A stretch of DNA of 44,996 nucleotides from Thermomicrobiales bacterium (GTDB lineage Bacteria > Chloroflexota > Chloroflexia > Thermomicrobiales > UBA6265), in contig JAHBVL010000019.1 in assembly GCA_019637585.1 (NCBI GenBank), positions 1 to 44,996 on the forward strand. Reading direction: 5' to 3'. Below the pieces are notes generated by a model, which worked only from the letters and a program-made list of their open reading frames with translations, had not been told where the DNA came from and did not search any database. Of this stretch, positions 2,792 through 33,206 are shown in pieces. Each line of letters opens with the position of its first letter. Positions within the stretch are counted from its first letter, which is position 1. Both the position numbers and the translations under genes were made by a program.

Positions 2792-5320
<2,529 letters not shown>

Positions 5321-7420: not shown

Positions 7421-7436
7421 TGTGAAGAATATGGTC

Positions 7437-9557
7437 CTAGTCGGCCGGAACCGCGACTGACTCGAGGAGTGTCGCGGCGATCGTTCGAACCGGGCGGACG
7501 CTGACCATTGTCGAATGGAAGGTCGATTGACCACCGAGATCGGCCAGGCGGTCGGATGTCAGCCAGTTCAGCCCCCGCTTGCCCGGCATCGACTGTCCCC
7601 ACTGTCCCTTGGGAGAAACGGCGACGCCCGGCGCCGTTTCGTCGGTGACCCGGGCGATCAGCTCGCACGATCCGCGCTGGTTGTAGACCTCGACATGCGA
7701 TCGGTCGGCGATGCCCAACCGGAGCGCGTCGGTGGGATTGATGAGAATCTGGGGCCGTCCCTCTTTGGCCTGCAACGACGGCTGATTGCCGAACGAGCTG
7801 GATACGAAGTGGTGAGCGGCGCCGGAGATGAGCACCAGATCGCCGAGCTGGTTGCGTTCGGCGCCGTACTCCAGCGGTTCCTTGTAGTCGGGAAGAGGAT
7901 CGACGCCGTGGTCGAGCATCGCATCACAACGAAGCTCGATCTTGCCGGACGCTGTCCGGAACCGGCCACCAGCAAACGGCACGTCTTCGTCCGGCTTGAC
8001 GGAATAGGCCACCGTTCCCTCGTCCTGGAGACGTTCCAGTGTGATGCCTTCCAGGAATGTGTTGCCGGTTTTGGTCGCTTCGAGAATCTCCTCGATGACC
8101 TCGGTGGTCGACTGCTTCAACCAGGGGTCGTCGTACCCCATGGCGGCGGCGAGGTCCTGCATCACCTGCCAATTGCCCCGGCATTCGCCGGGAGGCGGAA
8201 CGGCTGCATGGTTGTATTGCAGGTGCCGGTGGCCATACGCCTTGTGCAGATCGTCCCGTTCCAGTTGTGATGTCGCCGGCAGCACGATATCGGCATAGCG
8301 CGCCGTGTCGGTCATGAATTGCTCGTGGACCACGGTGAAGAGGTCCTCGCGCATCAATCCCTGCACCGTGGCGCCGGCGTTGGGAGTCGAGGTGACTGGA
8401 TTGGCGATGAAGACATAGAGACTGCGAATCGGCGGGTCGCTGACCTCGCCGGTCAGTGAGGCGCCCAGCCGGTTCATGTTGACGATGCGCGGCACTGGCG
8501 GGCATTCGGACGCTTTGCCCATCGCTTCCTCGTCCCAGACGATGTGACTGCTCTGCGAGTAGAAAATGCCTCCCCCTCGCACGCCGTACTGCCCGGTCAG
8601 GGCCGGAAGGCAGAGGAGCGCGCGGATAGTCTGGCCGCCGTTTTCGTGCCGCTGTACGCCATCGGAGAACTTGATCATCGCTGGCGACTCGGCGGCGAAC
8701 CGGCGCGCCAGCGATTCGATCGTCTCCGCGTCGATTCCGGTGATCACCGCGACCTTTTCGGGAGAGAAGTGCGCGGTGCGTTCCCGCAATTCCTGCCAGC
8801 CAATCGAGTGCGCGTCGAGCCAGTCCGGATCGTGCAGGCCATCCCGAAAGATGACGTGCATCAGACCCAGGGCCAGGGCGGCATCAGTCGCTGGTTTGAC
8901 CTGCAGGTAGAGATCGGCTGATTTCGCCGTGACGGTGCGTCGTGGGTCGATGACCACGACATAGGTGCCATTCCGCTGCGCTTCGCGCAGGAAGGGCATA
9001 AAGTGTGGATTCGTGCTGGCAGGATTGTGTCCCCAGATCAGAATCGTCTTGGTATGCGCGACGTCGCGAGGATCGGGGGCGAGCTTGCCGCCGATCGTGG
9101 CAATGGACGCGGTGGTAGCCGCGGCATCGCAGATCGAACGCTCGAGCCCGCAGGCGCCCATCCTGTTCCAGAAGCGGGTGGCCGCCACCATGTTCTCGAC
9201 CAATCCGAGGGTGCCGCTGTAGGAGTAGGGGAGGATCGCCTGCGCGCCATCCTCGGCAATGATCGCCTTCCAGCGGCCGGCGATCTCGTCGATCGCCTCA
9301 TCCCAGGTGATGCGTTCCCACCGATCAGACCCCTTGGGTCCCTTTCTGCGAAGGGGATACATCAGCCGGTCGTCGGCGTAGACCCGTTCGAGATAGGGGC
9401 GCACCTTGGCGCAGAGCCATCCCTGGGTGATGGGATGATCCGGGTCGGCGACGAAGCGGACAACCCGGCCGTTGTGCACCTCGGAGAGGGTTGCGCAGGT
9501 GTCGGGACAGTCGTGGGGGCATGCACCGCGAATCAGCCGAGGTTCGGTCAATGCCAT
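7437..9557 (-). CDS. molybdopterin (bis-MGD) oxidoreductase with N-terminal [4Fe-4S] domain
   Basis: This 706-residue protein belongs to the DMSO reductase/formate dehydrogenase superfamily. The N-terminal cluster motif is CPHDCPDTC with a fourth Cys in GWLC (C13, C17, C21, C49). It then has the family's W-D-E-A-I-D motif and a catalytic-core segment SICDAAATTA, whose C143 is a candidate metal ligand. The final ~120 residues are the molybdopterin-dinucleotide binding domain (GAAHHF, NPTDALRLGI, V-x-V-Y-N). There is no Tat signal and no accessory subunit gene, so it is probably soluble and cytoplasmic. It fits the group of uncharacterised single-subunit enzymes near formate dehydrogenase alpha; the substrate is unknown. 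The ATG at 9557 has a G-rich ribosome-binding site. It sits between an OsmC gene (39 bases upstream) and the ABC ATPases. Confidence 0.9.
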   Translation of the reverse strand: MALTEPRLIRGACPHDCPDTCATLSEVHNGRVVRFVADPDHPITQGWLCAKVRPYLERVYADDRLMYPLRRKGPKGSDRWERITWDEAIDEIAGRWKAIIAEDGAQAILPYSYSGTLGLVENMVAATRFWNRMGACGLERSICDAAATTASIATIGGKLAPDPRDVAHTKTILIWGHNPASTNPHFMPFLREAQRNGTYVVVIDPRRTVTAKSADLYLQVKPATDAALALGLMHVIFRDGLHDPDWLDAHSIGWQELRERTAHFSPEKVAVITGIDAETIESLARRFAAESPAMIKFSDGVQRHENGGQTIRALLCLPALTGQYGVRGGGIFYSQSSHIVWDEEAMGKASECPPVPRIVNMNRLGASLTGEVSDPPIRSLYVFIANPVTSTPNAGATVQGLMREDLFTVVHEQFMTDTARYADIVLPATSQLERDDLHKAYGHRHLQYNHAAVPPPGECRGNWQVMQDLAAAMGYDDPWLKQSTTEVIEEILEATKTGNTFLEGITLERLQDEGTVAYSVKPDEDVPFAGGRFRTASGKIELRCDAMLDHGVDPLPDYKEPLEYGAERNQLGDLVLISGAAHHFVSSSFGNQPSLQAKEGRPQILINPTDALRLGIADRSHVEVYNQRGSCELIARVTDETAPGVAVSPKGQWGQSMPGKRGLNWLTSDRLADLGGQSTFHSTMVSVRPVRTIAATLLESVAVPAD

Positions 9558-15317: not shown

Positions 15318-17768
15318 TTGAACGATCTGAACTCGCTACTTCAGCATCTTGCCGCGGGCCGAATCAGCCGGCGGCACTTTCTCTCGGCCGCGGCAGCGCT
15401 CGGCGCCTCATCCAGCTTCCTGGCGCGCGTTGCCGCGACGCCTGAGGGCGCCCTGGCCCAGGAGGCATCCCCGGTCGGCGCGGCGACAGACACGATCACA
15501 TTCACGGCTTTCAACGTCGATCAGGCTCCCCTCAATATCCAGAATGGAGATATGGATCTCTATCTCTTCGGGTTGAAGACGGCGGGAGCCCAGAGTCTCG
15601 ATGGTGCCGAGGGCGTTCGGTTGATCGATGCCCCGGCATCGACCCTCTCCTTGATTCTCAATCCGGCTCCGGCGCCCGAAGGGAGCTTCAATCCCTTCTC
15701 GGTGCGGGAGATTCGTTACGCCATGCAGTCGCTCATCGACCGCGACTTCATTGCCAACGATATCTACCAAGGGCGGGCGTTGCCGATGCTGACCAACATC
15801 AGCCCGCTCGACTACGACCAGCTGACGATCTTTCCCATCGTCGGCGCCGGCAATATTCGCTACGACCCCGATCTGGCCAACCAGCAGATCGGCGAAGCGA
15901 TGGAGGCGAACGGCGCGACGCTGGAAAACGGGCAATGGACCTTCAATGGCTCGCCGGTCATGATCAAGATCGTGACCCGCGTCGAGGATGAACGGCGCGA
16001 AATCGGCGACCTGGTCCGATCGGTCCTCGAATCCTCTGGATTTCAGGTGCAGCCGATCTATCAGCAGTTCGGCCCAGCGACGCTGGCCGTCTATGCCAGC
16101 GACCCGCGCACCTTCCAGTGGCACATCTACACCGAAGGGTGGGGCAGAGGGGCGCCGGTGCGCTACGACGATGCCGGGATCAACCAGTTCGCCGCGCCTT
16201 GGCTGGGGAACATGCCGGGTTGGCAGGAAGTTGGGTTCTGGCAGTACCAGAACGAAACACTCGACGAGGTGGGCAAGCGCCTCTATCGCGGCGAGTTCAC
16301 CAGCCGGGAAGATAGGGACCAGCTCTACATGCAGATGACCGCGACCGCGCTCGAGGAATCGGTGCGCGTCTGGTTGGTCACGGCCATGCAGAGCTTCCCG
16401 GTCAGCACGGCGATCGAGCATCTGACCGAAGACCTGGTCAGTGGTCCGCGAAACACCTTCGCCCTGCGGGGAGCGGAGATTCCGGGCAGCGACACCATTC
16501 GCGTCGGCAATCTGTGGGTCTGGACCGAACGGACGACGTGGAATCCGATCGGTGGATTCGGCGATGTCTACAGCTCGGACATCTACAAGAACATGGTCGA
16601 CCCGACGATCATCAATCACCCCTTTTCCGGTCTGCCGTCGCCCTTCCGTGTCGACTACACGGTGGAAACCGCCGGTCCGGATGGGACATTGCCCGTCCCG
16701 GAAAGCGCCGTGATGTGGGACGCGGCGCAGGATGTCTGGGCGCCGGTGGCGTCCGGCACGGTGGCCAAGAGCAAGGTCGTTTTCGACTACACCAAGTACC
16801 TGCAGACCACGTGGCAGCATGGACCGGCCATCACCATGGCCGACGTCATCTACCCGATCGCGCAGGGATATGAAATCGCGTTCGACGATGCCAAGGTCCA
16901 GATCGAAACGGCCATGGGCATCACGGCCCGGCCGCTCTACGAGACCTTCCAGGGCTATGTTTTCGGCGAATCGACCGTCGAGGTCTATGTCGACTACTGG
17001 CACTTCGAGGAGGGCTACATCGCCTCGTATGCGTCACCCTCCGGTGTGTCGACCCCGTGGGAAGTGCTGGCGGCAATGGATGACGTCGTTTTCGAGAAGC
17101 GGCAGGGCGCCTATTCCGACACAGCCGCCGCCCGTTTCAGCGTGCCATGGATCAGCCTGGTGACGGAGAGCGACGCCCGGTTGGTGCTTCGCTCGATTCA
17201 GCAGGCGAAGCGAGAAACACGGATACCTGCCGGTGTGTTCGACGTCGGGGGCGCGACGATCGTCACGCCAGAAGAAGCGGAAGCGCGGTATGACGCGTGC
17301 GACGAGTGGTTCGATGCCACCAACCTGCTGGTCATCGCCAATGGGCCGTATCAGCTGACTGACTACGATCCACCGGCCCAGTTCGCCCAGCTCGATGCAT
17401 TCCGGCCCGAGGGTTATCCCTTTACCGTGGAGGATTTCCGGTTTGGCACGCCGCCGGCGTTGACGATCGACGCCTCCAGCGTGCCATCGCTGGCGCTTGG
17501 CGATGCGATCTCGGTGCCGGTGACCGTTGCCGGGCCTGGTGACCTTTCGCTGCACTACTCGTTCGTCGACCCGGCCACCGGCCAGACCCTCGTCTCCGGA
17601 GCAAGTGAGGGAACCAGCAGCGACGGAACATTGTCGGCGACGATCGACGTCGACCCGGATGTCAGCGCGACCCTGTTTCCGGGTCTCTATCAGCTCTTTG
17701 TGATCGCGGCGAGTTCTGAGATCGCGCAAATCGCGCAGCAGCGCATCGATCTGGGAATCGGCGTGTAG
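15318..17768 (+). CDS. large extracytoplasmic solute-binding protein (family 5), permuted order
   Basis: This 816-residue binding protein of a Dpp/Opp-type importer starts with TTG at 15318, seven bases after a strong AAGGAGG. A Tat-like signal (SRRHFLSAAAALG, residues 17-29) precedes the mature protein. The family-5 features appear in an unusual order. The segment with VREIRYAMQSLIDRDFI (129-145) and the G-x-Q-V-Q-P stretch, normally in the second lobe, comes first. The segment with YTKYLQTTWQHGPAITMADV (491-510), which corresponds to the usual first-lobe F-x-L-x-x-x-x-x-x-D-G-x-P-x-T-A-x-D-V, comes later, followed by NGPYQLTDYD (675-684). A C-terminal ~100-residue beta-rich domain begins near TPPALTIDAS. 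Family members are usually 500-600 residues. Two permease genes follow. Confidence 0.85.
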   Translation: MNDLNSLLQHLAAGRISRRHFLSAAAALGASSSFLARVAATPEGALAQEASPVGAATDTITFTAFNVDQAPLNIQNGDMDLYLFGLKTAGAQSLDGAEGVRLIDAPASTLSLILNPAPAPEGSFNPFSVREIRYAMQSLIDRDFIANDIYQGRALPMLTNISPLDYDQLTIFPIVGAGNIRYDPDLANQQIGEAMEANGATLENGQWTFNGSPVMIKIVTRVEDERREIGDLVRSVLESSGFQVQPIYQQFGPATLAVYASDPRTFQWHIYTEGWGRGAPVRYDDAGINQFAAPWLGNMPGWQEVGFWQYQNETLDEVGKRLYRGEFTSREDRDQLYMQMTATALEESVRVWLVTAMQSFPVSTAIEHLTEDLVSGPRNTFALRGAEIPGSDTIRVGNLWVWTERTTWNPIGGFGDVYSSDIYKNMVDPTIINHPFSGLPSPFRVDYTVETAGPDGTLPVPESAVMWDAAQDVWAPVASGTVAKSKVVFDYTKYLQTTWQHGPAITMADVIYPIAQGYEIAFDDAKVQIETAMGITARPLYETFQGYVFGESTVEVYVDYWHFEEGYIASYASPSGVSTPWEVLAAMDDVVFEKRQGAYSDTAAARFSVPWISLVTESDARLVLRSIQQAKRETRIPAGVFDVGGATIVTPEEAEARYDACDEWFDATNLLVIANGPYQLTDYDPPAQFAQLDAFRPEGYPFTVEDFRFGTPPALTIDASSVPSLALGDAISVPVTVAGPGDLSLHYSFVDPATGQTLVSGASEGTSSDGTLSATIDVDPDVSATLFPGLYQLFVIAASSEIAQIAQQRIDLGIGV

Positions 17769-17787
17769 TCGAGGCGGTCACTGGGCT

Positions 17788-18849
17788 GTGGACGGACTGA
17801 TCAGCGTTGCCAAACCGCTGGCGATTCGGGCGCTGACGCTTTTCGGCGTGCTTGTCGCCGTGCTCGTGTTGCTGGTGGTGTCGCTTGGGGCCACCGGTTA
17901 CTCCGACCGCCTCCTCGAAGCCCAGGTCAACGAAGAGCTGCGCAGCTTCCGTATCTCCTCGGCGCAGACGATTCGCGATCCGGCCGCGCTGGAGCAGGCG
18001 GTGGCCGAGCGCAAAGTCGAGATCGAAGCGTTCTACGGACTCGATGAGGAGTGGTGGAGGCGCATGCCATCGCAGATCTGGCAGGTTCTGACCCTCGATC
18101 TCGGTCAGGCTCGATCGCTGCGAACGACGGACGGCAGCAGCCAGATCAGCGACATCGTGCTGGAGCGGCTCCCGAAAACGATGATCCTCCTGACTACGGC
18201 GTCGATGATTACCGCGGTCATCGGTTTGATCGTCGGCGTCCGGATGTCGACCCAGGTGGGCAGCCGGCTCGACCGGACCGTGGCCTATTTCGCCGCCATC
18301 TCATTTGCGGTGCCGGCCTGGTGGCTGGGCATCCTTTTCATCATGGTCTTCGCTTTCAAGCTGGACTGGCTTCCAGCCGGCGGCATGTACAGTTCGCCAC
18401 CACCTGAGCCGGGAATCGACCGCTGGCTCGATCTTCTTGGGCACGCCATCCTGCCGATCATGACTCTCGTGCTGGTCAGTGTCGGTCCCTATATCTACTC
18501 GGTTCGGACCATGACGGTGACCGCCGCGCAGGAGGATCACGTTCAGCTGGCCCGAGCCAAGGGGCTTTCTGAATCGACGGTGACCCGCCGCCATATCCTC
18601 CGGGTGGCGGCGCCCCCCATCGTGACGGGTCTGGTGCTCGGTCTGGCTGGTTCGCTGAGCGGTTCGATTCTGACCGAAACGGTGTTCAACTGGCGGGGCA
18701 TGGGACGTCTCTACTACGACGCGATCAGCGGCACGCCCGACGAGGGGGTCATCGTTGCCCTCACCTTTGTCTTCACCCTGCTCTACCTGATCTGCCGGTT
18801 CGTGCTCGACATCCTGTATGTCGTTCTCGATCCGCGGGTGAGGTATTAG
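17788..18849 (+). CDS. ABC transporter permease, DppB/OppB-like
   Basis: A 353-residue inner-membrane permease. The N-terminal helix (about 10-35) is followed by a long periplasmic loop (about 40-125, rich in charged residues), then five helices. The loop to the ATPase has the EAA-type motif (VQLARAKGLSESTVTRRHILRVA written with conserved A-x-A-K-G-L-S), about residues 252-274. The segment NWRGMGRLYYDAI is typical of DppB. The gene starts with GTG at 17788, 19 bases after the binding-protein stop, and ends 8 bases before the second permease. The enlarged first loop matches the enlarged loop of its partner and the enlarged binding protein, pointing to a distinct transporter subtype. Confidence 0.9.
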   Translation: MDGLISVAKPLAIRALTLFGVLVAVLVLLVVSLGATGYSDRLLEAQVNEELRSFRISSAQTIRDPAALEQAVAERKVEIEAFYGLDEEWWRRMPSQIWQVLTLDLGQARSLRTTDGSSQISDIVLERLPKTMILLTTASMITAVIGLIVGVRMSTQVGSRLDRTVAYFAAISFAVPAWWLGILFIMVFAFKLDWLPAGGMYSSPPPEPGIDRWLDLLGHAILPIMTLVLVSVGPYIYSVRTMTVTAAQEDHVQLARAKGLSESTVTRRHILRVAAPPIVTGLVLGLAGSLSGSILTETVFNWRGMGRLYYDAISGTPDEGVIVALTFVFTLLYLICRFVLDILYVVLDPRVRY

Positions 18850-18857
18850 CACCACCC

Positions 18858-20354
18858 ATGGCCGATCCTGCCGCCATCCTCGAACCCGCCGCTCTGCCTC
18901 CCGACATGGTCGACGACGATCCTCCAGTCCGCGGCAGCATGTCGCTGCGTGGAATCCTGTCGATCCTGCTGTCGAATCCGTCCGGTCGAGCGGGAGTGGC
19001 GCTCTTTCTCGTGCTTATCGGCATCTCCGCCTGGGTGTTGCTGACCTATCCAAGCGATTTCGGTCCGGATCGATGGTCGGCGCCCCTGGTCTGGGCAGAC
19101 AACCCGAAAACCGCGCCTCCGTCCTGGACCAGATTGTGGAATGACAATGCCGTCGAGCATCAGGTCGCGCATCTGACCGAACCGGCGGCCACCGAAGAGC
19201 GGGGACCGGCTGAAGTCCGCAGTTATGACGCGGTCTTCGTTCAGGAATCGGCATCGCCGCCGCAGTTCCTCTCAGCGACCATTGAGGGAGTGACCTACCA
19301 CGATCGCGCGCCGATCATCATCATCACTTTGCTCAGACCGGACGGCGGCGAGATCAGACTGGCCAACATCGCCGTCACCGCACCACGGCCCGGTGAGGAA
19401 GCGCCCTATGAACGCTTCTTCGAAACACCGGAACGCGTGCTGCTGACACAGCAGGACACGGCCAGGCAGGCGATCGCCGAGTGGTTTGCCGCCACCTATC
19501 CTGATACGCTGGTGAGCGGATCCGTTGCGCTGAATGCGGCGCTGTTCGGTGTTCCAGCGGCAGACGGCGCGCTCGAGACCCTGCCCGGCGAGTACACGAT
19601 CCGGACCCAGTTCGTCGTCGCCAATGCCGACGACACCCTCGAAGAGGTCGAAGTGATCTATGGGGGCACGGTCTATGGGTTGATGGGCACCGATTCACTC
19701 GGCCGCGATCTTTTCGAGGGCCTCCTCTTCGGATTCCCGGTGGCGCTGGTCATTGCCGCGCTGGCGTCGGTGCTGTCGACATTGATTGGTGCGTCGCTGG
19801 GCATCATCAGCGGCTATGTCGGCGGCGCGACCGACACCTTCATCCAGCGGCTGGCCGACATCGTGTCCAATGTGCCGGTGTTGCCCCTCCTGATCTTCCT
19901 GGTGTTCATCGTCGGGTCCAATCTCTATCTGATCATTCTGGTGCTGGTGGCATTCAGCTGGACCGGACTGACCATCGTGGTTCGATCGATGGTGTTGCAA
20001 CTGCGCTCTGGTCAGCTCGTGGAATCGGCGAAAGCGCTGGGTGCATCCCGGGGCCGGATCATGCTCCGGCACGTTTTTCCGCAGGTGGCGCCATTCATCG
20101 TTGCGCAGATGATCTTTTCGGCGCCGGGAGCCATTCTGGCGGAAGCGTCGCTGAGCTTCCTCGGTCTGGGCGATCCGTCAATCCCCACCTGGGGGCAGAT
20201 GCTGGAAGCTGGTTTCCGCACCGGCGCGCTCTATGTTGGCTACTGGTGGTGGGTCATTCCGCCTGGCGTGTTGATCATCGTCACCGCGATGGCGTTCATG
20301 TTGCTGGCGCTGGGGATGGAGCAGGTGGTGGATCCGCGGTTGAGGGAGCCCTAA
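18858..20354 (+). CDS. ABC transporter permease, DppC/OppC-like, with large periplasmic insert
   Basis: This 498-residue permease is about 200 residues longer than usual DppC proteins. The first helix lies at about residues 50-72. A hydrophilic insert follows (about 73-270). The typical family segment MGTDSLGRDLFEGLLFGFP begins near residue 276, and the remaining five helices and the E-S-A-K-A-L-G-A-S-R-G ATPase-coupling motif near 392 are normal. The extra domain lies on the outer face by topology, so it may contact the unusually large binding protein. No ATPase gene follows. The ATG at 18858 comes 8 bases after the first permease. Confidence 0.9.
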   Translation: MADPAAILEPAALPPDMVDDDPPVRGSMSLRGILSILLSNPSGRAGVALFLVLIGISAWVLLTYPSDFGPDRWSAPLVWADNPKTAPPSWTRLWNDNAVEHQVAHLTEPAATEERGPAEVRSYDAVFVQESASPPQFLSATIEGVTYHDRAPIIIITLLRPDGGEIRLANIAVTAPRPGEEAPYERFFETPERVLLTQQDTARQAIAEWFAATYPDTLVSGSVALNAALFGVPAADGALETLPGEYTIRTQFVVANADDTLEEVEVIYGGTVYGLMGTDSLGRDLFEGLLFGFPVALVIAALASVLSTLIGASLGIISGYVGGATDTFIQRLADIVSNVPVLPLLIFLVFIVGSNLYLIILVLVAFSWTGLTIVVRSMVLQLRSGQLVESAKALGASRGRIMLRHVFPQVAPFIVAQMIFSAPGAILAEASLSFLGLGDPSIPTWGQMLEAGFRTGALYVGYWWWVIPPGVLIIVTAMAFMLLALGMEQVVDPRLREP

Positions 20355-24643: not shown

Positions 24644-25288
24644 CTACTGCCAGTCCGCGATCAGCTCCTCGAGGGGGCGGCGCGGTTTGCGGACGGGATC
24701 GCGGGCCGCTTTGCCAATGGGGATCATTGCGTGCGGGATGAGGGTTGGGTCCAGGCCGAGCGACTGCCGCACGATGTCAGGGCAGAAGAGCGGGGCGCAC
24801 ATCCAGCCGGCATCGAAACCGGACGCATAGACCGACAGCAGCAGATTCTGTACGGCTGACCCGAGGCTCTGGATCGCCATCGTCACCTCTGCCTCTTGCC
24901 GGCCAGCATCAGGGTAGTCGTCGAGATCGGCGAGATAGAGACAGGCCACGACGACCACGGGTGGCTGGGTCAGCCGTTCCTTGCCCTTCTGCAACCGGAT
25001 CTGGACCGTTGCCTCGTCCTGACCGTCGAATCGGAGTTGCCTTTCCCAATCAGTCGCCATGGCGTCGGCCAGCGCCCGGCGGCGAGCGGCGGATTCGATA
25101 ACAACGAAGCGCCACGGTTGACTGTTGTGCGGCGACGGCGCCCACCCAGCGGCGAGGATCGCTCGCTCGACGACCGACCGTGGTACGGGGGCGTTCGAAA
25201 ACGCTCGGACCGAGCGCCGGCCGGTCAGGGCGGCGCTCAACGAATCGCCCCGATCGGCGGGGGGTGTCGGTTCAGGCGCCTCGATCAT
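24644..25288 (-). CDS. stand-alone nitroreductase-fold protein, FbiB C-terminal-domain-like
   Basis: This is a 214-residue FMN-binding nitroreductase-family protein. RRSVRAFSNAPVPRSVVE, SPHNSQPWRF, the R-x-x-L-A-D-A-M-x-x-D-W-E-R-Q-L-x-x-D-G segment, P-D-A-x-R-x-x-A-E and the final G-K-A are arranged as in the C-terminal domain of mycobacterial FbiB, which reduces dehydro-F420-0 using FMN. A stand-alone version fits an organism whose CofE (30386) lacks that domain. Other nitroreductase functions cannot be excluded. The ATG at 25288 overlaps the preceding binding-protein stop as ATGA, so the two are translationally coupled, and the unit lies under an FMN riboswitch. Confidence 0.85.
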   Translation of the reverse strand: MIEAPEPTPPADRGDSLSAALTGRRSVRAFSNAPVPRSVVERAILAAGWAPSPHNSQPWRFVVIESAARRRALADAMATDWERQLRFDGQDEATVQIRLQKGKERLTQPPVVVVACLYLADLDDYPDAGRQEAEVTMAIQSLGSAVQNLLLSVYASGFDAGWMCAPLFCPDIVRQSLGLDPTLIPHAMIPIGKAARDPVRKPRRPLEELIADWQ

Positions 25289-26802
25289 GGACGAAGCGTC
25301 GCGATGAGGTAGTCGTCCGGCCGGGGACTCCATTCCGGTACGCCGGCCCGCTGGCCGGTCGACGATGTCAGGCTGTAGAGGTAGATCGCGGCCGGTTCCT
25401 CGAAGAGCGCGACTCCCAGGTCGAGTCCGATCTGGGCTCGCGCGTCGGGGTCGGCTTCGGCGGCAAATGCGTCGATCAGCTCCTGCACGCGTGGATTGTC
25501 GTGCCGCGACAGGAACCCGGCGTTGGAGACGACCAGACTGAGCAGTGTGTGCGGATCGAAGAGCGGCCGCCAGGTGGCGAAGCGGAGCGGGGATGCCGCC
25601 GGATCGGTGCCCAGCCAGTAGTCGCCGGAGTTGAAGAGCGCCAATTCGAGCCGGTTCACGGTCGTCCGAATGCCCACGTCCGACAACATGGCCGCCACGG
25701 CTTCGACGATGTCGCTCCGCTCGGTGACGGTGGCATCGATAGACGTGTCGAAACCATCCGGATAGCCGGCCTCGGCCAGGAGCGCCCTGGCTCGTTCCGG
25801 ATCGAAGGAATAGGGCGCGAGGTCGGGATCGTAGCCAAGACCGCCGGGCACGAAGAAGTTGGCCAGTCGCTGGCCGTTGCCGTCGAGGAGAGCAGCGATG
25901 ATCGACTCGACGTCGACGGCATGGTTCATGGCCTCCCGCACGCGAACATCGTCGAACGGCGCGACATCGGTCGGAACGCGGACGAATGCGCTGCCCGAAA
26001 TGGGGGTCTGGAGAACGACGTCGCCATTGTTCTCGACCGCGCCGATCTGATCGATTGGCACAGCTCGAACGATGTCGGACGTGCCCGACAGAAGATCGGC
26101 CACGCGAGTCGTGGCGTCAGCGACGAACCGGTAGTCGAGTCTGTCTGCAACCGGCCGGCCCTTCGGGCTGGCTGCGAAGTAGTCGTCGTTTGCGGTCAGC
26201 GACACCCGGTCGCCCGGCACGAACGATTCGAACCGGTAGGGACCGGTGCCGATCGGGGTGGCGAAGAAGTCGGGCTCTTGAGCGGCCTGCGGAGGAAGGA
26301 GGCAGAGCCAGGCCGCGATCTGGGCAGGCAGCCAGGGAGCAGTCGATGAGAGATGGAGATCGGCGGTCAACTCGTCGATCACCTCGACCGATTCGATCAC
26401 GGCGAAGTTCGCCGCCACCTGGGATGCTGTTTCCTCCGCCAGGATGTGAGCGATCGAGGGTTCGATAGCGCTGGCGTCGAGCGGTTCGCCGTTGTGGAAG
26501 GCGATGTCCGGTCGCAGCACCACGCGGTAGGTCAGCGGGTCGAGGAGGGTGAAGGACTCGGCCAGCAGCGGTTCGATCGCGCCGTCGGGCGCGTACTGCA
26601 AGAGTGAGTCGAAAACGCTGTGAACGATCGACCAGCCGTCGGCGTCGTAGGTTCTGGCCGGATCGAGCAGGGCTGGTTCGGTGCCGAGATCGATCGTCAG
26701 TTGCTCGGCACGAGCGGTCTGCGCGACAGTCGTGAATCCTCTGCCGATGAGCGAGCCGATGCCGGCGATTCCGGTGGTGGCGAGTAAGGTTCTTCGGTTC
26801 AT
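25285..26802 (-). CDS. ABC transporter solute-binding protein, family 5 (DppA/OppA-like)
   Basis: This 505-residue extracytoplasmic binding protein has a twin-Arg-like signal (MNRRTLLATTGIAGIGSLIG). Family-5 order is normal here: YDSLLQY-type segment (SVFDSLLQYAPDG), LAESFTLLDPLTYRVVLRPDIAFHNGEPLDA near residues 80-110, GTGPYRFESFVPGD near 185, then VREAMNHAVDVE near 285 and the terminal lobe. ATG 26802 follows AGGGAGA. It is the third gene of a unit headed by an FMN riboswitch and translationally coupled to an FMN-dependent nitroreductase, so the ligand may be a flavin, a flavin precursor or a related heterocycle; this is inference, since the family mostly binds peptides, nickel chelates or sugars. 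Confidence 0.92.
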   Translation of the reverse strand: MNRRTLLATTGIAGIGSLIGRGFTTVAQTARAEQLTIDLGTEPALLDPARTYDADGWSIVHSVFDSLLQYAPDGAIEPLLAESFTLLDPLTYRVVLRPDIAFHNGEPLDASAIEPSIAHILAEETASQVAANFAVIESVEVIDELTADLHLSSTAPWLPAQIAAWLCLLPPQAAQEPDFFATPIGTGPYRFESFVPGDRVSLTANDDYFAASPKGRPVADRLDYRFVADATTRVADLLSGTSDIVRAVPIDQIGAVENNGDVVLQTPISGSAFVRVPTDVAPFDDVRVREAMNHAVDVESIIAALLDGNGQRLANFFVPGGLGYDPDLAPYSFDPERARALLAEAGYPDGFDTSIDATVTERSDIVEAVAAMLSDVGIRTTVNRLELALFNSGDYWLGTDPAASPLRFATWRPLFDPHTLLSLVVSNAGFLSRHDNPRVQELIDAFAAEADPDARAQIGLDLGVALFEEPAAIYLYSLTSSTGQRAGVPEWSPRPDDYLIATLRP

Positions 26803-26853
26803 AGGTCTCTCCCTGAAACTACTGTTGCACGGCGTCATGACGACTGCGCTCCA

Positions 26854-27768
26854 TTACGATCGGGCGGTTCGCGATCGAGGGTCGAGACGGCGACGCAGTC
26901 CGTCGCCGATCAGATTGAGTGAAAGCACGGACATGGCGATCGCGACGCCCGGCAACGCCGGTACCCACCAGGCGGCCAGCATCGCCTCCCGCCCCTGCGC
27001 AACCATGCCGCCCAGCGTGATGGTGTCAGATGGAACCCCCAGTCCAAGGTAACTGAGAGCGGCTTCGAAGAGCATCACGGCGGCGATCTGTTGCGTGGCG
27101 ATGACGATGACCGGGCCAAGAGAATTGGGCAGCAGGTGCTTGCGGGCGATCCAGACTCGCGAACCTCCCATTGACCGGCTGGCCTCGACGAATGGTGAGG
27201 CGAGGAGCGACTTCGTTGTCGCGCGTACCACGCGCTGATAGGAAACCCAGCCTGTCGCCGCCAGCACACCGATGACCACCCCCGTGCCCGGCTGGAAAAT
27301 GGCGGCCGCGGCGATGGCCAGAATGACCGCGGGAACGGCGATCTGGACATTGACCAGAAAGCCGGTCAATCGATCGACGACCGGCCCCGACGTGGCCGCC
27401 AGCAGACCCAGGAGAACGCCGGTCAGTCCGGCGATGAGCGTCACAGCCAATCCGATTGCCAGCGAAAAACGGAGACCGACTGCCATGCGGGCGAAGAGAT
27501 CGCGACCCAGTTGGTCGGTGCCGAATGGATGCTCCCAGGAGCCGCCGTCGAGGAAAGCAGGCTCGGTCAATCTGGCCGAAAGCTGCTGTGCTTCTGGATC
27601 GGCATCGACCAGCAATGGACCGATCGCTGCGAACACGAGGAGCAGGATGGCCAGCGAGAGACCGATCCACATCCCCGCCGAGAATCGCAACGACCAGGAG
27701 CGCGCTGGACGCGCGGGGCGTGCGGATTCGCCGGATGCGCGGTGGACGCCATGCAGGTGTTCGGCCAT
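26854..27768 (-). CDS. ABC transporter permease, DppC/OppC-like
   Basis: A 304-residue inner-membrane permease of normal DppC size. The first helix lies at about residues 32-55, then the hallmark HPFGTDQLGRDLFARMA and five more helices. The ATPase-coupling loop has VEASRSMGGSRVWIARKHLLP. The ATG at 27768 comes two bases after the stop of the first permease; a GTG overlapping that stop as GTGA is an alternative. The longer open frame upstream is a shadow over the first permease gene. No ATPase gene is adjacent. Confidence 0.93.
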   Translation of the reverse strand: MAEHLHGVHRASGESARPARPARSWSLRFSAGMWIGLSLAILLLVFAAIGPLLVDADPEAQQLSARLTEPAFLDGGSWEHPFGTDQLGRDLFARMAVGLRFSLAIGLAVTLIAGLTGVLLGLLAATSGPVVDRLTGFLVNVQIAVPAVILAIAAAAIFQPGTGVVIGVLAATGWVSYQRVVRATTKSLLASPFVEASRSMGGSRVWIARKHLLPNSLGPVIVIATQQIAAVMLFEAALSYLGLGVPSDTITLGGMVAQGREAMLAAWWVPALPGVAIAMSVLSLNLIGDGLRRRLDPRSRTARS

Positions 27769-27770
27769 GG

Positions 27771-28712
27771 TCACCACGACCGCATCCTCTCCGGCTCGGC
27801 GTCCCGGAGGCGCGGGTCGGCGAGAAGCGTGGCGATCTCGGCGGCCAGGTTGGCCAGCACGATGAAGACCGCCGAGCAGGTCACGAACATCAGCACCACC
27901 GGCAAGTCCCGGTTGGAGACCGACTGCAGCGCCAGCTGGCCAGCGCCCGGATAGGCGAAAACCCACTCCACGACGACCGCGCCGGCCAGAAGGAATCCAG
28001 CCAGCACGCCGGCGAAGGCGATCGGCGCGATTGCGGCGTTGCGCGCAACGTGCAGGGCCAGCACGGCCGATTCGGACAGTCCCTTGCCCCGGGCGGTCCG
28101 CACGTAGTCGTTGCGGTACGCGTCTTCCACCGACGCGCGGACCATCCGAATCAGCACGGCGGTGGGATAGGCCGCCAGCGTGAGGACGGGCAGCACCATC
28201 GAAGAGAATCCCTCGCGGCCCGATGAGGGAGCCCAGCCGAGCCGAACCGAGAAAAAGAGAATCAGCATCGTGCCGAGCCAGAAACCGGGGATCGCCTGTC
28301 CTGCCAGTGAGATGAGATGGGCGATTGTGTCGACGACTCCGCCCGGCCGGGCGCCGGCCAGCGATCCGAGCAGCGTAGCGCTGACGATCGAAAGCAGGAG
28401 GGCGAAACCGACCAGTTCGAGCGTGGCGGGCAACCGGTCGAGCACCACGCGACTGGCGGATTGGTCGAAACGCCACGACGTGCCGAAGTCGCCGCGGATG
28501 GCGTTGCTGATGAACGACAAGTATTGCCTGCCGACCGACTCATCGAGACCATACTGCTCGCGCAGCGCGGCGACATCTTCCGGGTCGCTGCCCGGAGGCA
28601 CCAGCGCGTCCGCCGGGTCGCCGGCCAGGTGCAGCATGGCAAAAACGAGCGTGACGACGGTCAGCAGAACGGCGAAGAGGGTGACGATGTGCAGACCAAT
28701 GCGACCAATCAT
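27771..28712 (-). CDS. ABC transporter permease, DppB/OppB-like, first gene of the FMN-riboswitch unit
   Basis: A 313-residue permease with the N-terminal helix (about 5-27), a periplasmic loop with LREQYGLDESVGRQYLSFI and a five-helix core. The coupling motif is DYVRTARGKGLSESAVLALH, followed by VEWVFAYPGAGQLALQSV, both typical of DppB. The ATG at 28712 lies 27 bases beyond the terminator that forms the expression platform of the upstream riboswitch, so its transcription should fall when FMN is abundant. It is followed without a gap by the second permease. Confidence 0.93.
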   Translation of the reverse strand: MIGRIGLHIVTLFAVLLTVVTLVFAMLHLAGDPADALVPPGSDPEDVAALREQYGLDESVGRQYLSFISNAIRGDFGTSWRFDQSASRVVLDRLPATLELVGFALLLSIVSATLLGSLAGARPGGVVDTIAHLISLAGQAIPGFWLGTMLILFFSVRLGWAPSSGREGFSSMVLPVLTLAAYPTAVLIRMVRASVEDAYRNDYVRTARGKGLSESAVLALHVARNAAIAPIAFAGVLAGFLLAGAVVVEWVFAYPGAGQLALQSVSNRDLPVVLMFVTCSAVFIVLANLAAEIATLLADPRLRDAEPERMRSW

Positions 28713-28738
28713 GTGAACGTGTATCTCTTCAGAACAAC

Positions 28739-28775
28739 AAAAAAACCCGAAGGCATCCTGCCCTCGGGTTTTTGG
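28739..28775 (-). terminator. rho-independent terminator, riboswitch expression platform
   Basis: Read on the minus strand, CCCGAGGGCA pairs with TGCCTTCGGG through a 3-base loop (one G-T wobble), flanked by AAAA upstream and a run of seven T. It lies between the FMN aptamer and the first permease ATG, where a transcription-attenuating riboswitch places its terminator. A second strong hairpin (9-base arms, 28799-28819) sits between it and the aptamer. Confidence 0.88.
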
Positions 28776-28826
28776 TTCTGGAATGCGAACGCACGAGTCT
28801 GGCGATCGACGATCGCCAGCTCACAC

Positions 28827-28967
28827 GCCTTCTCCCATCCGGACTTTACCGTCGGCTCCGGAATCTCACCGGATCGTGCCGCCAGAGTCATCTGGCCGCT
28901 CGCGGGCTCTCACCGCCGGTCGGGACTTGGCCATCATAGTGCGTGGCCTCACCCAAACCCCGAAGGC
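28827..28967 (-). promoter_or_regulatory. FMN riboswitch (RFN element) aptamer
   Basis: On the minus strand the aptamer begins GCCTTCGGGG and ends GGGAGAAGGC, closing P1 with GCCTTC/GAAGGC. In between are the conserved RFN blocks: TCCCGACCGGCGGT, GAGAGCCCGCGAG, GATCCGGTGAGATTCCGGAG, CCGACGGTAAAGTCCGGATG. The P2 arm is slightly extended. FMN binding to such elements normally lowers expression downstream through termination or occlusion. Here the gene controlled is a Dpp-type permease operon with an FMN-family nitroreductase. Confidence in the aptamer is high because nearly all conserved blocks are present in order. Confidence 0.96.
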
Positions 28968-28979
28968 TTATTGACCATG

Positions 28980-29008
28980 AGGGTAGCCAATACGGGCGCA
29001 GGCGTCAA
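28980..29008 (-). promoter_or_regulatory. promoter for the FMN-riboswitch transcript
   Basis: Read on the minus strand, TTGACG (29008-29003) is followed after 17 bases by TACCCT (28985-28980). The predicted start, near 28973, falls about six bases before the aptamer. The -35 is strong, the -10 is weak. Confidence 0.5.
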
Positions 29009-29065: not shown

Positions 29066-29289
29066 CTGCGTTGCCCCACCTTCAGGGCGGACGGGCGAGG
29101 CAGGCCTCGCCGCTACACCGAACCAGATGGTCGCGGGTGGGACTACAATGTCCGCGTTGCCGCACGTTCAGGGCCGACGGGCGAGGCAGGCCTCGCCGCT
29201 ACACCGAACCAGATGGTCGTGGGTGGGGCGGCAATGTCTGCGTTGCCGCACGTTCAGGGCCGACGGGCGAGGCGGGCCTCGCCGCTACA
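29066..29289. repeat. 86-bp direct repeat, two full copies and a third partial
   Basis: Units begin at 29066, 29152 and 29238 and are about 90 percent alike. Each contains the near-palindrome GGCGAGGCAGGCCTCGCC, with 8-base arms and a 2-base loop, followed by GCTACA. The third copy is cut after the palindrome. The block fills most of the gap between the riboswitch promoter and the F420-dependent dehydrogenase gene (29009-29328); no gene was found there. The form is like REP/palindromic-unit arrays. Confidence 0.9.
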
Positions 29290-29328: not shown

Positions 29329-30315
29329 CTATGCCCACCTGAGCGCTGGAATGACGTGCTTGCCGTAAGCCTCGATGAAGGCTTCCTGCTCCCGGTTGAC
29401 GTTGTGGATGATCACCTCGTCGAATCCGAGATCGATGAATCGCTGCACGTAAGCCCGGTGCTGGTCCAGATCGGCGGTCATCAGCACGCGATTCTTGAAG
29501 TGCTTCGGTTCGACCAGTTTGGCCATCGCCTCGAAGTCTTCGGGATTGCGAATATCCCCCTTAGGGAAAGCCATACCGCCGTTCGGCCATTCTTTCACCG
29601 CTCGCTCGACCGCGAGCTCGTCCGTCTCGGCCAGCGAGACCTTGAGCTGGATGATCTTCGGCATCTTGGACGGATCCTTGCCGGCTTCGAGCGCGCCTTT
29701 TTCGAAGCGCTCCATCAGCATTTTGAGCTTCTCGTCCGCAGCGCCGACCGTGATCAGTCCGTCGGTCATCTTGCCGGTCCGGTACGACTGGATGGGACCA
29801 GCCGTGGCCACATAGATCGGGGGAGGCGCCTCCGGCATCGTGTAAATGCGGGCGCTCTCCACGTTGAAGTGCTGGGATCGATATTTGACGACTTTGCCGG
29901 TGAAAAGTTTCTGGATGATTTCGATCGATTCGGCCAGCCGCTCGAGCCGAACGGGCGCTTCCGGCCAGTAGTCGCCCGTGATGTGCTCGTTCAGCGCTTC
30001 CCCAGCGCCCAACCCAAGATAGAAGCGGCCCGGGAACATCGCTTCCACCGTCGCCGCGGCCTGGGCCAGCACCGCCGGATGGTAACGGTAACCAGGTGGC
30101 GTCACACCGCTACCGAAACGGAGCTTGGTTTCGACGCCGAGGGCGCCCATCCAGGTCCAGACGAACGCAGAATGACCCTGCGACGGAACCCAGGGATGAA
30201 AGTGATCGGAGGCCATGACCGACTCGAACCCGTTCGCTTCGGCCAGTTTGGCGTACGAGAGCAGATCGGTCGGATGAAACTGCTCGAAACTCGCCGCATA
30301 CCCTACGCTACCCAA
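29329..30315 (-). CDS. F420-dependent LLM-class oxidoreductase (TIGR03557-like, Fgd-type)
   Basis: This 328-residue luciferase-like TIM-barrel enzyme uses F420 as hydride carrier. SVGYAASFEQFHP at the N-terminus, ASDHFHPW around 35-42 and the G-x-G-x-x-L-N-E-H segment (LGLGAGEALNEHITGDYWP) are the pattern of the F420-dependent glucose-6-phosphate dehydrogenase family and its close relatives; substrate identity is not certain. I propose TTG at 30315, six bases after AAGGA, because the protein there begins with the first barrel strand; the longer frame lacks any relationship to the family. It lies 70 bases after cofE on the same strand, consistent with a shared F420 role. Confidence 0.9.
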   Translation of the reverse strand: MGSVGYAASFEQFHPTDLLSYAKLAEANGFESVMASDHFHPWVPSQGHSAFVWTWMGALGVETKLRFGSGVTPPGYRYHPAVLAQAAATVEAMFPGRFYLGLGAGEALNEHITGDYWPEAPVRLERLAESIEIIQKLFTGKVVKYRSQHFNVESARIYTMPEAPPPIYVATAGPIQSYRTGKMTDGLITVGAADEKLKMLMERFEKGALEAGKDPSKMPKIIQLKVSLAETDELAVERAVKEWPNGGMAFPKGDIRNPEDFEAMAKLVEPKHFKNRVLMTADLDQHRAYVQRFIDLGFDEVIIHNVNREQEAFIEAYGKHVIPALRWA

Positions 30316-30385
30316 TGCCGTTCCTTTCGTGCAGAGGCCTATCTCGTTGCGATGCAGCCTACCAGAGACCAGCCCGTCTGGGCGA

Positions 30386-31156
30386 CTAGGGGAAGAAATT
30401 GCGTTCCGGAGGCATAACCAGATCGGACCCTGTTCCCTCCGGCGAGGTAGTTGGCGGCCGGTATCCACGAATCAGCGCGACAGGCCGCTGTTCGAGTTTG
30501 TGCATGACCAATTCCGCTGCCGAAGCGAGCTCATCGGCGACAGCGATCACCGTCACGTGGAGCTCATACCCGGCTCCATCGGTCAGACCCCGGTAGTCGG
30601 CGAGCGGCGCCAGCCCTGACACGCCAATCGCCACATTGACGATCCCGTTACGCCATGGCCGGCCGAACGAGTCGGAGATGATGATGCCGGGATCGACGCC
30701 GAACCGGCGCCGAAGGTCGTCGCGAATCATCCTGGCCGACCGGTCGGGGTCGATGGGCAGCAGGCAGACGCGCTCTTCCGCGGCGTTCGACGCGTCGACA
30801 CCGGCATTCGCGCAGATGAATCCATGCCGCGTTTCGGCGATCAGGACTCCGCGGTCCATCCGCACCACGCGCGTAGCCTCCCGGAGCGCCGCTTCGACCT
30901 GGCGGGCGTCTTTGCCCCACGCTTCGGCAAATCTCGATGCCAGATCGGAGGGTTCGAACGCGTTCAGGGAGACCAGGCGGCCCTCCGCCTTGGAAACGAC
31001 TTTGTGGGTCACCACCAGAATGTCGCCATCGACCAGACCGAGCCCGGATGCGTCGATGGAGTCGCCGATTTGCCGGGCCAGATCGTCGCCCGCTCGGACC
31101 TCGGGCAGGGGAGGCAGTCCGATGACTCGCAGTTCGTTCAGGTTCGGGCTATCCAT
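30386..31156 (-). CDS. cofE: coenzyme F420-0:L-glutamate ligase
   Basis: A 256-residue GTP-dependent ligase that adds L-glutamate residues to F420-0. GDILVVTHKVVSKAEGR, the R-x-D-R-G-V-L-I-A-E-T-R-H-G-F-I-C-A-N-A-G-V-D segment split around the metal site, DDLRRRFG, SDSFGRPWRNG and the A-I-G-V-S-G-L-x-P-L-x-D-Y-R-G motif all match CofE. The protein ends after the ligase domain, so it is not the bifunctional FbiB fusion; the separate nitroreductase at 24644 may supply the missing half. ATG 31156 overlaps the cofC stop by 8 bases. Confidence 0.96.
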   Translation of the reverse strand: MDSPNLNELRVIGLPPLPEVRAGDDLARQIGDSIDASGLGLVDGDILVVTHKVVSKAEGRLVSLNAFEPSDLASRFAEAWGKDARQVEAALREATRVVRMDRGVLIAETRHGFICANAGVDASNAAEERVCLLPIDPDRSARMIRDDLRRRFGVDPGIIISDSFGRPWRNGIVNVAIGVSGLAPLADYRGLTDGAGYELHVTVIAVADELASAAELVMHKLEQRPVALIRGYRPPTTSPEGTGSDLVMPPERNFFP

Positions 31157-31805
31157 GTGCCACTGGCTCTCCGGCGGCGGGAATGCCGTTCAACTGCAAC
31201 TCCTTCAGGTCCCCCAGATCTGCCGGAGTATCGAGATCGAATGACGTACCCATGGACACGGCGATGGCCGCGTCCAGTCCCAGGCGGTGCGCCTCTTCCA
31301 GGTGTGCGTGAAAACTTCCCACCCCGAAATGGTAGCCAAACTGGCCGCCCGTGGCGTCGATGCGCTGCATCAATCCGTTCGTGCCCTGGCGATGGCGATC
31401 TGGCGCGACGACGACCGGCGCGTCGCGACGCACCAGGTTCTCCACATCCTGCGAGCGAAGCAATGGCAGGTCGGCCGGCAGGATCACGGCGGTGCGGGCT
31501 CCCTGGCCGAGAGCGAACGTCGTGGCTTGGGTGAGCGCGCCGTTCAAGCCTTCGACCTCCGGCGGTTGCCAGAGCGGCAGGAGATGAGGCTCCCCGATCT
31601 CCTCCAGGAGGGTAAGGGCGTCCTGATCGGGGGTCACGACGATGACAGTCGCCACTGGCCGGACGCCGAGCGCGGCGTGCACCACGTTGTTCAGCATCGA
31701 ACGGCTCAGGTCCATCCGGTCGACCGGATCGAGCACGGGAGCGAGGCGGGATTTGCCGTCCGAAATCGACCGAAACGGGATGATGATGGCGTCTGGCCGA
31801 TTCAT
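31149..31805 (-). CDS. cofC: 2-phospho-L-lactate / phosphoenolpyruvate guanylyltransferase
   Basis: This 218-residue nucleotidyltransferase activates the 3-carbon acid for F420 side-chain synthesis with GTP. IIPFRSISDGKSRLAPVLDP is the family N-terminal signature, followed by VIVVTPD, LNGALTQAT, ILPADLPLL, VVVAPDRHRQGTNGL and the terminal F-D-L-D-T-P-A-D-L. Whether phosphoenolpyruvate (giving dehydro-F420) or 2-phospholactate is used cannot be told from sequence by eye; the FbiB-like reductase nearby favours phosphoenolpyruvate. The ATG overlaps the cofD stop as ATGA, and its own end overlaps cofE, so all three are coupled. Confidence 0.95.
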   Translation of the reverse strand: MNRPDAIIIPFRSISDGKSRLAPVLDPVDRMDLSRSMLNNVVHAALGVRPVATVIVVTPDQDALTLLEEIGEPHLLPLWQPPEVEGLNGALTQATTFALGQGARTAVILPADLPLLRSQDVENLVRRDAPVVVAPDRHRQGTNGLMQRIDATGGQFGYHFGVGSFHAHLEEAHRLGLDAAIAVSMGTSFDLDTPADLGDLKELQLNGIPAAGEPVAHG

Positions 31806-32755
31806 CGGCGCCCGACTCCATTCGACCGGAGGTTCGCCGCGAAGTCGAGCACCTCCGCGCCCAGCCTGGCCCGGTCGTCGTTCGATTGCATCACCGACTT
31901 CGTGACCAGCGTGGCGATGCCCAGATCCTCGATCGCATCGGCGAGACCGGCGTCGGCGGTGTCGATGACCAGTCCGTCGATCAACTCAGCGTAGATTCGG
32001 GCAATACCCACGGCGGACGACTCATGCCCGAGCGAGGTGAGCATGCGGTCGGCGGGACCCTTCAACGCTTTCCCACCAACGATCGGACTGACGGCGACCC
32101 GCACCGCAGCGGTCGATTCCAACGCCTGCCGGTATCCATCGACAGCCAGAATGGGACCAATGCTGACAATGGGATTGGAGGGGTTGATGACCACGGCTTC
32201 CGCCGTTCGAATGGCGGCGATCGCGTCAGGTTGGGCGATCGCTCCCTCAGCGCCCTGGAACCGGACGCCAACGACCTCGTCTCGCTGCTGCCGGCCGACG
32301 AAATAGGCCTGGAAGTCGAGCGATCCGTCGGGTGTCTCGATGATGGTTGCCACCGGTTGGTCGGACATCGGCACGATCTTCGGCACAATGCCGAGCGCCG
32401 TGGCGAGACGTGCGGTGATCGCGGTCAGGGTCGAACCCTGCGACAAAGCCTGCGTGCGAAGGATGTGGGTGGCGAAGTCGCGATCGCCGATCATGAACCA
32501 GTCTTCGCCACCCAGGTCGCGCAGCGTATCGAGCACGATGCGCGTATCTCCGGCGATCCCCCAGCCGGTTGCCGGATTGGCGATGCCACCCAGGGTGTAG
32601 AGAACAGTGTCGATATCCGGGCAGATGCGCAGATCCAGATGGTCGAAGTCGTCGGCGGTGTTGACGATGATGGTCAGCGGGGCAGGATCGGACGCCATGG
32701 CCAGCCCGTGGGCCATTTTCGCGCCGCCGACACCTCCGGCCAATGCGACGATCAT
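31802..32755 (-). CDS. cofD: 2-phospho-L-lactate transferase
   Basis: A 318-residue enzyme that transfers the activated 3-carbon phosphate unit to Fo, forming (dehydro-)F420-0. The N-terminus MIVALAGGVGGAKMAHGL, then VNTADDFDHLDLRICPDIDT, the GIANPATGWGIAGDT segment and W-F-M-I-G-D-R-D-F-A-T-H are conserved in CofD/FbiA. The ATG at 32755 starts exactly at the family N-terminus and follows GGAGAA; the upstream frame is a Ser/Thr-rich artefact overlapping the neighbouring gene. It is the first of the coupled cofDCE set and lies 49 bases after the split-barrel protein. Confidence 0.96.
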   Translation of the reverse strand: MIVALAGGVGGAKMAHGLAMASDPAPLTIIVNTADDFDHLDLRICPDIDTVLYTLGGIANPATGWGIAGDTRIVLDTLRDLGGEDWFMIGDRDFATHILRTQALSQGSTLTAITARLATALGIVPKIVPMSDQPVATIIETPDGSLDFQAYFVGRQQRDEVVGVRFQGAEGAIAQPDAIAAIRTAEAVVINPSNPIVSIGPILAVDGYRQALESTAAVRVAVSPIVGGKALKGPADRMLTSLGHESSAVGIARIYAELIDGLVIDTADAGLADAIEDLGIATLVTKSVMQSNDDRARLGAEVLDFAANLRSNGVGRR

Positions 32756-32804
32756 GCCAGCCGGTTCTCCACTCGATTCGTCGAATTTGGGCGCGGTCGC
32801 TGCA

Positions 32805-33206
32805 TCAGAATCCGTGGGCGTCGACGGCGTCGGGGATGAGCCGGAGCTCGATCCGATGCTGGTTCGCATACTCGTCCCGAATCAGCTCAGCGGCGCGCTC
32901 GGCTCCTTCGTAGTGTTCGGTCATCACGCGCATGCTCTCGAGGCCCCGTTCGCGGTCTTCGTCGATCTCGACCCGGCCGGAGACAGTCAGATAGCGCTGG
33001 CCATCCTCGATGCAGAGCGAAGCGCGAGGGTCGCGGTCGAGATTGTTCGGTTTGACACGGCCCTTGCGGGTGTTCATCACGATATCGCCGCCAACCCGCC
33101 GGTACCACATGACGGTTTGGTGAACAGATCCATCCGGATTGATCGTGGCCAGAACGCCGAAGCGCGGCTCATCGAGAAATGCTGCGACTTCCGGCTTCCA
33201 ATCCAC
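32805..33206 (-). CDS. split beta-barrel FDOR-like protein, probable F420-dependent
   Basis: A 133-residue protein of the flavin/deazaflavin oxidoreductase (PNPOx-like) superfamily. FLDEPRFGVLATINPDGSVHQTVMWYRR begins the barrel (read as short blocks FGVLATINPDG, HQTVMWYRR), followed by TRKGRVKPNNLDRDPRASL and VSGRVEIDED. This resembles FDOR-B proteins, many of which use F420, and the gene directly precedes cofD. GTG 33206 has a good GGAGG 8 bases upstream. The cofactor is inferred from family and neighbours; FMN or heme-related roles are alternatives. Confidence 0.85.
   Translation of the reverse strand: MDWKPEVAAFLDEPRFGVLATINPDGSVHQTVMWYRRVGGDIVMNTRKGRVKPNNLDRDPRASLCIEDGQRYLTVSGRVEIDEDRERGLESMRVMTEHYEGAERAAELIRDEYANQHRIELRLIPDAVDAHGF

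Follow-up and report, generated by a model that had tools for sequence, protein, structure and literature searches.

A Dpp/Opp-type importer under an FMN riboswitch in Thermomicrobiales, probably recruited for riboflavin uptake in place of RibXY

Here we examine a 44,996-nucleotide stretch of DNA from a Thermomicrobiales bacterium (assembly GCA_019637585.1, contig JAHBVL010000019.1; 'the window' below means this whole stretch), in which a flavin mononucleotide (FMN) riboswitch precedes an operon for a Dpp/Opp-type ATP-binding cassette (ABC) importer, made up of two permeases, a family-5 substrate-binding protein and a nitroreductase. We consider it highly probable that an FMN attenuator governs an importer recruited for riboflavin, or a close flavin, where riboflavin synthesis has been lost, and that this importer has replaced RibXY there. 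The source genome spans 3.94 Mb in 33 contigs and is 96.6% complete, the window being contig C11. For comparison, 121 related genomes were searched for RF00050 and for the binding protein, and the surroundings of the matches were then examined; 32 genomes, the window genome included, form the window's own family (f1), and f2 denotes its sister family.

A covariance-model search matched RF00050 over its full length and above the gathering score (Table 1), confirming the aptamer that a first-pass annotation of the window had placed at 28827-28967 on the minus strand, which is the same element without the outer P1 ends. This is the sole Rfam match in the window (cmscan) and the sole FMN riboswitch of the genome; a chance match is ruled out by the E-value, the full-length alignment and the recurrence in relatives. 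The terminator with a T-tract reported before the first gene is likewise real, a terminator scan having returned it about 28 bases from the ATG of permease 1 (28712), and in computed foldings the P1 5' strand of the aptamer, GCCTTCGGGGTTT, is able to pair with the terminator 5' arm, AAAACCCGAGGGC. Predicted energies are -22.9 kcal/mol for the terminator and -21.5 to -24.8 kcal/mol for the competing P1/terminator-arm duplex, with 0/200 shuffles as good. A transcript ending after the terminator 5' arm is predicted to fold into an antiterminator, and the full leader into aptamer plus terminator. Among the 20 f1 leaders tested, 17 have a terminator 45-94 nucleotides past the aptamer, and in 15 of those 17 the pairing of terminator arm and P1 beats at least 192 of 200 shuffles, this mimicry being judged by a duplex test after an exact-repeat test was dropped as too strict.

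In these models the leader is equipped with an expression platform able to switch with P1 and conserved in relatives, and the arrangement agrees with the classical picture of FMN halting transcription (an FMN-off attenuator). At low FMN, the P1 5' strand would pair with the terminator 5' arm and polymerase would read through; with ample FMN, P1 would be locked, the terminator would form and the operon would be off. Of the promoter elements also proposed earlier, the position just before the aptamer holds, but only 8 of 12 bases agree with the consensus, and a stricter promoter scan reported no promoter-like site at TTGACG-17-TACCCT.

The pairing of riboswitch and operon recurs in related genomes. 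An FMN riboswitch followed by permease 1 on the same contig was found in 22 of the 32 f1 genomes (in one, L090, only the aptamer's 3' part is present, at a contig end), the other f1 genomes mostly showing contig ends at this place, and permease 1 is usually followed by permease 2, one or two binding proteins and the nitroreductase. Full-length binding-protein orthologues score 360-610 bits and paralogues at most 243, and the binding proteins of the riboswitch operons form one clade with a support of 100/100. When 84,980 species genomes were scanned, close orthologues occurred only in Thermomicrobiales/Chloroflexia metagenome-assembled genomes (MAGs), other matches being distant family-5 proteins (23-34%); the orthologue records that bear names likewise come from MAGs of Thermomicrobiales or Chloroflexia, UBA6265 and AVDCRST isolates among them. 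Five of the riboswitch operons (L081, L083, L084, L085 and L089) contain two tandem, diverged binding proteins, possibly for two substrates.

Most f1 members lack key genes of riboflavin synthesis. Profile searches found neither RibH (PF00885) nor RibB (PF00926) in the window genome or in 25 other f1 members, while 14/14 control genomes have both; RibF is present in the window genome (138 bits), and with RibH and RibB absent and RibF kept, riboflavin must therefore be imported. Auxotrophy was called from RibB and RibH alone, in draft genomes, and counts of absence depend on MAG completeness (four operon-less f1 auxotrophs are 67-75% complete). Importers were called by score, the cut-off for the Dpp-type binding protein being 360 bits; for RibY it was 250, and in G016 and G024 fragments were also counted.

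RibXY, whose version from Chloroflexus aurantiacus allows a riboflavin auxotroph to grow again (PMC4418817), is distributed in a complementary manner. Strong RibY matches (260-555 bits) occur in most of the class, yet in one f1 genome only; the riboswitch operon contains no RibX or RibY, and the best RibY-model match of the window genome, on contig C1, reaches 170 bits. Among auxotrophs at least 90% complete, the Dpp-type operon is present in 10/10 f1 genomes and in 0/27 genomes outside f1, 25 of these 27 carrying RibXY instead; over all auxotrophs, this mutual exclusion has a Fisher p of 9e-14 (relatedness ignored). Moreover, in f2 the same nitroreductase comes after riboswitch-RibX-RibY (L114, L115). 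Taken together, the auxotrophy pattern, the exclusion of RibXY and the f2 gene order make non-orthologous replacement the best explanation, and the Dpp-type importer has most likely taken RibXY's place for riboflavin uptake in f1, where it would supply riboflavin, or a close flavin, to a lineage without riboflavin synthesis. The flavin-related role that the first-pass annotation proposed for the importer thus gains support from the 22/32 recurrence and from RibXY replacement in riboflavin auxotrophs, and of the four substrates it named, riboflavin now appears the best supported by the auxotrophy and the replacement, as far as genome comparison can tell.

The cargo may be wider than riboflavin. 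Supply of a deazaflavin pathway had also been suggested, and part of this stands: the operon is linked to cofC/D/E and to a reductase resembling the FbiB C-terminal domain (FbiB-C), and there is no Fo synthase; Fo as cargo is a tentative proposal. In such a dual flavin/deazaflavin importer, which we can entertain only with reserve, Fo would also be taken up and turned into F420 by CofD, CofC, CofE and the nitroreductase. Fo synthase (CofH/FbiC) gave no match in any of the 32 f1 genomes, though CofD lies above cut-off in 22; these organisms either import Fo or own an unrecognised Fo synthase, and the latter option counts against Fo uptake. F420-using enzymes scoring above their cut-offs adjoin the operon, the nitroreductase lies inside it, and the F420-gene neighbourhood upstream of the riboswitch recurs in other f1 members, with cofC/D/E upstream of the operon in L065, L072, L074, L076, L078, L080 and L097. 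An f2 genome (G036, contig C176), a riboflavin prototroph with RibB and RibH and without CofH, has ribX-ribY directly behind cofD-cofC in an apparent operon without an FMN riboswitch (L128:7793-11396); this order fits Fo uptake, making the pair a candidate Fo importer, and no further cofD-cofC-ribXY operon was found among five genomes of G036's family. In near-complete CofD-bearing prototrophs, an importer is present in 23/26 without CofH versus 2/10 with CofH (p 2e-4), but this association is confounded by kinship, the CofH-positive importer-free genomes representing few genera. The riboswitch, moreover, senses FMN and not Fo, and importers also occur where CofD does not: CofD is missing from the importer-bearing genome G021 (98% complete) and likewise from Herpetosiphon-like genomes, which retain RibXY; therefore, Fo cannot be the sole cargo.

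That the importer carries both riboflavin and Fo, with f1 and many CofD-bearing, Fo-synthase-free Chloroflexia living on their neighbours' Fo and finishing F420 themselves, is a somewhat doubtful extension of these observations. If true, this would make the operon the first Fo salvage system on record, and RibXY-type importers would have the same role elsewhere, as in the cofD-cofC-ribX-ribY order of G036. In an F420 review, no discussion of bacterial Fo salvage was found under the terms searched; the operon's link to F420 genes, in hosts that lack Fo synthase, makes such salvage directly testable. Many genomes of the class possess F420 tail genes but no Fo synthase, CofH/FbiC being unmatched in 79 of the 94 CofD-bearing genomes among the 121.

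The most likely reaction of the nitroreductase is the FMNH2-dependent reduction of dehydro-F420-0 to F420-0, judging from sequence comparison with FbiB, whose C-terminal domain carries out this reduction (PMC6450877). The operon protein shares with FbiB-C the nitroreductase fold, its best PDB match (4xom), two of three docked pocket residues (P289 and M372) and co-occurrence with CofD: over the 121 genomes both are present in 80, neither in 23, and 18 are discordant (Fisher p 2e-11, kinship uncorrected). It differs in being stand-alone or PPOX-fused and not CofE-fused, in the replacement of R337 (Lys here, Ser in most relatives) and in a score of 155.9 bits with the FbiB-C model TIGR03553, under the curated cut-off of 249.55. 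With such an activity, the operon would also serve F420 maturation alongside the cofC/D/E genes upstream. A flavin-handling enzyme with no F420 role (BluB-like or a flavin reductase), acting on the imported flavin, would suit the FMN-dependent fold, the operon position and a match of 71.1 bits to the BluB model TIGR02476, but appears improbable: this match is below its cut-off of 150, the FbiB-C score is twice as high, and the gene tracks CofD and keeps two of the three docked FbiB residues (not R337). In several relatives the nitroreductase is fused behind a TIGR03668 (Rv0121-type) PPOX domain (L062:3738-4823, L068 (d4), L072:12563-13669 and L132:11622-12731), in f1 as well as in other families.

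The protein families themselves might suggest an ordinary peptide importer, or one of nickel or opine type, under an FMN riboswitch, for instance supplying amino acids or metal at flavin shortage. The permeases and binding protein do fall in peptide/nickel/opine families, and the AlphaFold2 model of the binding protein (pLDDT 91) has the family-5 fold, its nearest solved structures binding peptides, glutathione, opines or nickel; the fold search with this model returned the family fold only and no flavin-binding template, leaving the ligand uninformed. Such an importer is nevertheless very unlikely, as the operon is the sole FMN-riboswitch target in RibXY-free riboflavin auxotrophs of about 20 genera and the dipeptide contacts of DppA are missing. 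E. coli DppA grips its dipeptide via R383 and D436 (PMC12136057); on alignment, the window protein has the Arg383 position deleted and Asp436 replaced by Pro, and both residues are missing in every orthologue complete in that part, the D436 position being Pro in a conserved TWRPLFDP motif and deleted in one. Their loss would speak against a DppA-like dipeptide site, without indicating flavins. Uptake of a riboflavin precursor (5-amino-6-ribitylaminouracil or lumazine), another substrate put forward by the first-pass annotation, would suit FMN regulation, and Fo too is built from 5-amino-6-ribitylaminouracil, but it is scarcely credible, because RibB and RibH are missing and, with CofG/CofH/FbiC absent as well, the uracil precursor could be converted neither to riboflavin nor to Fo.

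Returning to riboflavin uptake as the role of the operon, several points weigh against it. The substrate is very probably riboflavin, but the grounds are regulation and phyletic pattern only. Six f1 members with rib genes (G009, G019, G022, G023, G024 and G029) retain the Dpp operon, the five with RibH carrying a second riboswitch before a ribD-ribE-ribBA-ribH-like operon. The swap between Dpp-type importer and RibXY coincides with one clade and so amounts in essence to a single evolutionary event with repeated retention; the p-values take no account of the relatedness of the genomes. The presence of two binding proteins in the operon of five genomes leaves room for a second substrate. The missing DppA dipeptide residues do not single out flavins, since most of the window genome's other family-5 binding proteins lack them too, and the nitroreductase score does not reach the curated FbiB-C cut-off.

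The gene order given earlier (permease, permease, family-5 binding protein, ATGA-coupled nitroreductase) is borne out by Pfam matches and coordinates, and all three Pfam scores defining a Dpp/Opp-type importer (two BPD_transp_1 permeases and SBP_bac_5) are above cut-off. Two points are new relative to that description: the operon is without an ATPase gene, and it is closely preceded, on its own strand, by cofE, cofC, cofD and the genes of two F420-dependent oxidoreductases. No oligo_HPY ATPase pair was found in the riboswitch operon of the window genome or of the relatives examined. Elsewhere, the window genome has 18 oligo_HPY matches, the nearest pair lying at window 5335-7534, and at least eight of its other Dpp-type clusters show no neighbouring ATPase gene over the regions inspected; ATPase sharing therefore appears to be usual in this genome, and the riboswitch-operon importer probably borrows its ATPase from another system. 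RibXY, too, has been described without an ATPase component (PMC3766115). The Dpp-type ATPase pair at 5335-7534 is on the minus strand, and a separate set at 15318-20354 on the plus strand comprises an 816-aa binding protein and two permeases, also without an ATPase. Many such binding protein-permease-permease clusters without an adjacent ATPase occur at loci L196-L205 of the same genome, their binding proteins being highly diverse.

Comparison with known systems places the operon apart from each. With RibXY of C. aurantiacus it shares the riboswitch class, the bacterial class, a binding-protein-dependent importer without its own ATPase gene and riboflavin auxotroph hosts, and with RibXY in f2 also the nitroreductase that follows; RibXY, however, is of the SsuC/NMT1 (thiamin, sulfonate) type with one permease, whereas the window operon combines a family-5 binding protein with two Dpp/Opp permeases, and the two systems are not homologous. 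E. coli DppABCDF has two permeases and a family-5 binding protein of the same superfamily and similar fold, but the window operon differs in its FMN riboswitch, in the lack of dppD/dppF and of the dipeptide-terminus residues, and in scoring below all equivalog cut-offs. The spirochete RfuABCD is likewise an ABC-type riboflavin importer, with a basic-membrane-protein-type binding protein, nucleoside-type permeases and its own ATPase as differences. An FMN riboswitch stands on RfuABCD in Spirochaeta smaragdinae, and the known FMN-riboswitch importers are RibU, RibM, RibN, ImpX, RibZ, RibV, RfuABCD and RibXY, the Dpp/Opp family not being among them (PMC4418817).

The view of the first-pass annotation that a Dpp/Opp importer is an undescribed class of flavin transporter accords with our literature search, which found no earlier report of an FMN riboswitch with a dipeptide/peptide ABC transporter, subscription journals being mostly outside its coverage; such a system is also absent from the titles and abstracts of recent papers on riboflavin transporters. 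A family-5 importer that carries a peptide- or nickel-uptake annotation would constitute a new flavin transporter class, and it would mark riboflavin auxotrophy in Thermomicrobiales known here only as MAGs.

Table 1. Coordinates of the riboswitch, its operon and the upstream F420 genes in the window
Feature	Positions	Strand	Evidence
FMN riboswitch aptamer (RF00050)	28823..28971	-	cmscan 92.4 bits, gathering score 66.2, E 4.5e-20, model positions 1-138 of 138
Intrinsic terminator	28741..28773	-	terminator scan: 15-bp stem then T's; 5' arm complementary to aptamer 5' P1 strand
Weak promoter-like pair TTGACG-17-TACCCT	28980..29008	-	just before aptamer, read from sequence, 8/12 consensus bases
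Permease 1 (DppB/OppB type)	27771..28712	-	PF00528 99.5 bits; NCBIfam Opp2B 268 bits, under equivalog cut-off 350
Permease 2 (DppC/OppC type)	26854..27768	-	PF00528 80.5 bits; Opp2C 205 bits vs cut-off 300
Family-5 substrate-binding protein	25285..26802	-	PF00496 (SBP_bac_5) 244 bits; twin-arginine-like leader MNRRTLL
FbiB C-terminal-domain-like nitroreductase	24644..25288	-	PF00881 104 bits; start within stop of binding-protein gene (ATGA)
F420-dependent LLM oxidoreductase (TIGR03557 family), upstream	29329..30468	-	304.8 bits, cut-off 210.4; true start probably ~30315
cofE, F420-0:L-glutamate ligase, upstream	30386..31156	-	TIGR01916 260 bits, cut-off 180.65
cofC guanylyltransferase, upstream	31149..31805	-	TIGR03552 142.9 bits, cut-off 105
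cofD transferase, upstream	31802..32869	-	TIGR01819 310 bits, cut-off 257.45
PPOX-class F420-dependent oxidoreductase (Rv1155 type), upstream	32805..33206	-	TIGR03618 103 bits, cut-off 79.05

Between the LLM oxidoreductase gene and the riboswitch, an 86-bp tandem repeat occupies window 29068-29289 in 2.6 copies with a 93% match. Further away, at window 2792-5254, one open reading frame of 820 aa holds two stretches for each of two malic-enzyme Pfam domains and is apparently a tandem fusion.

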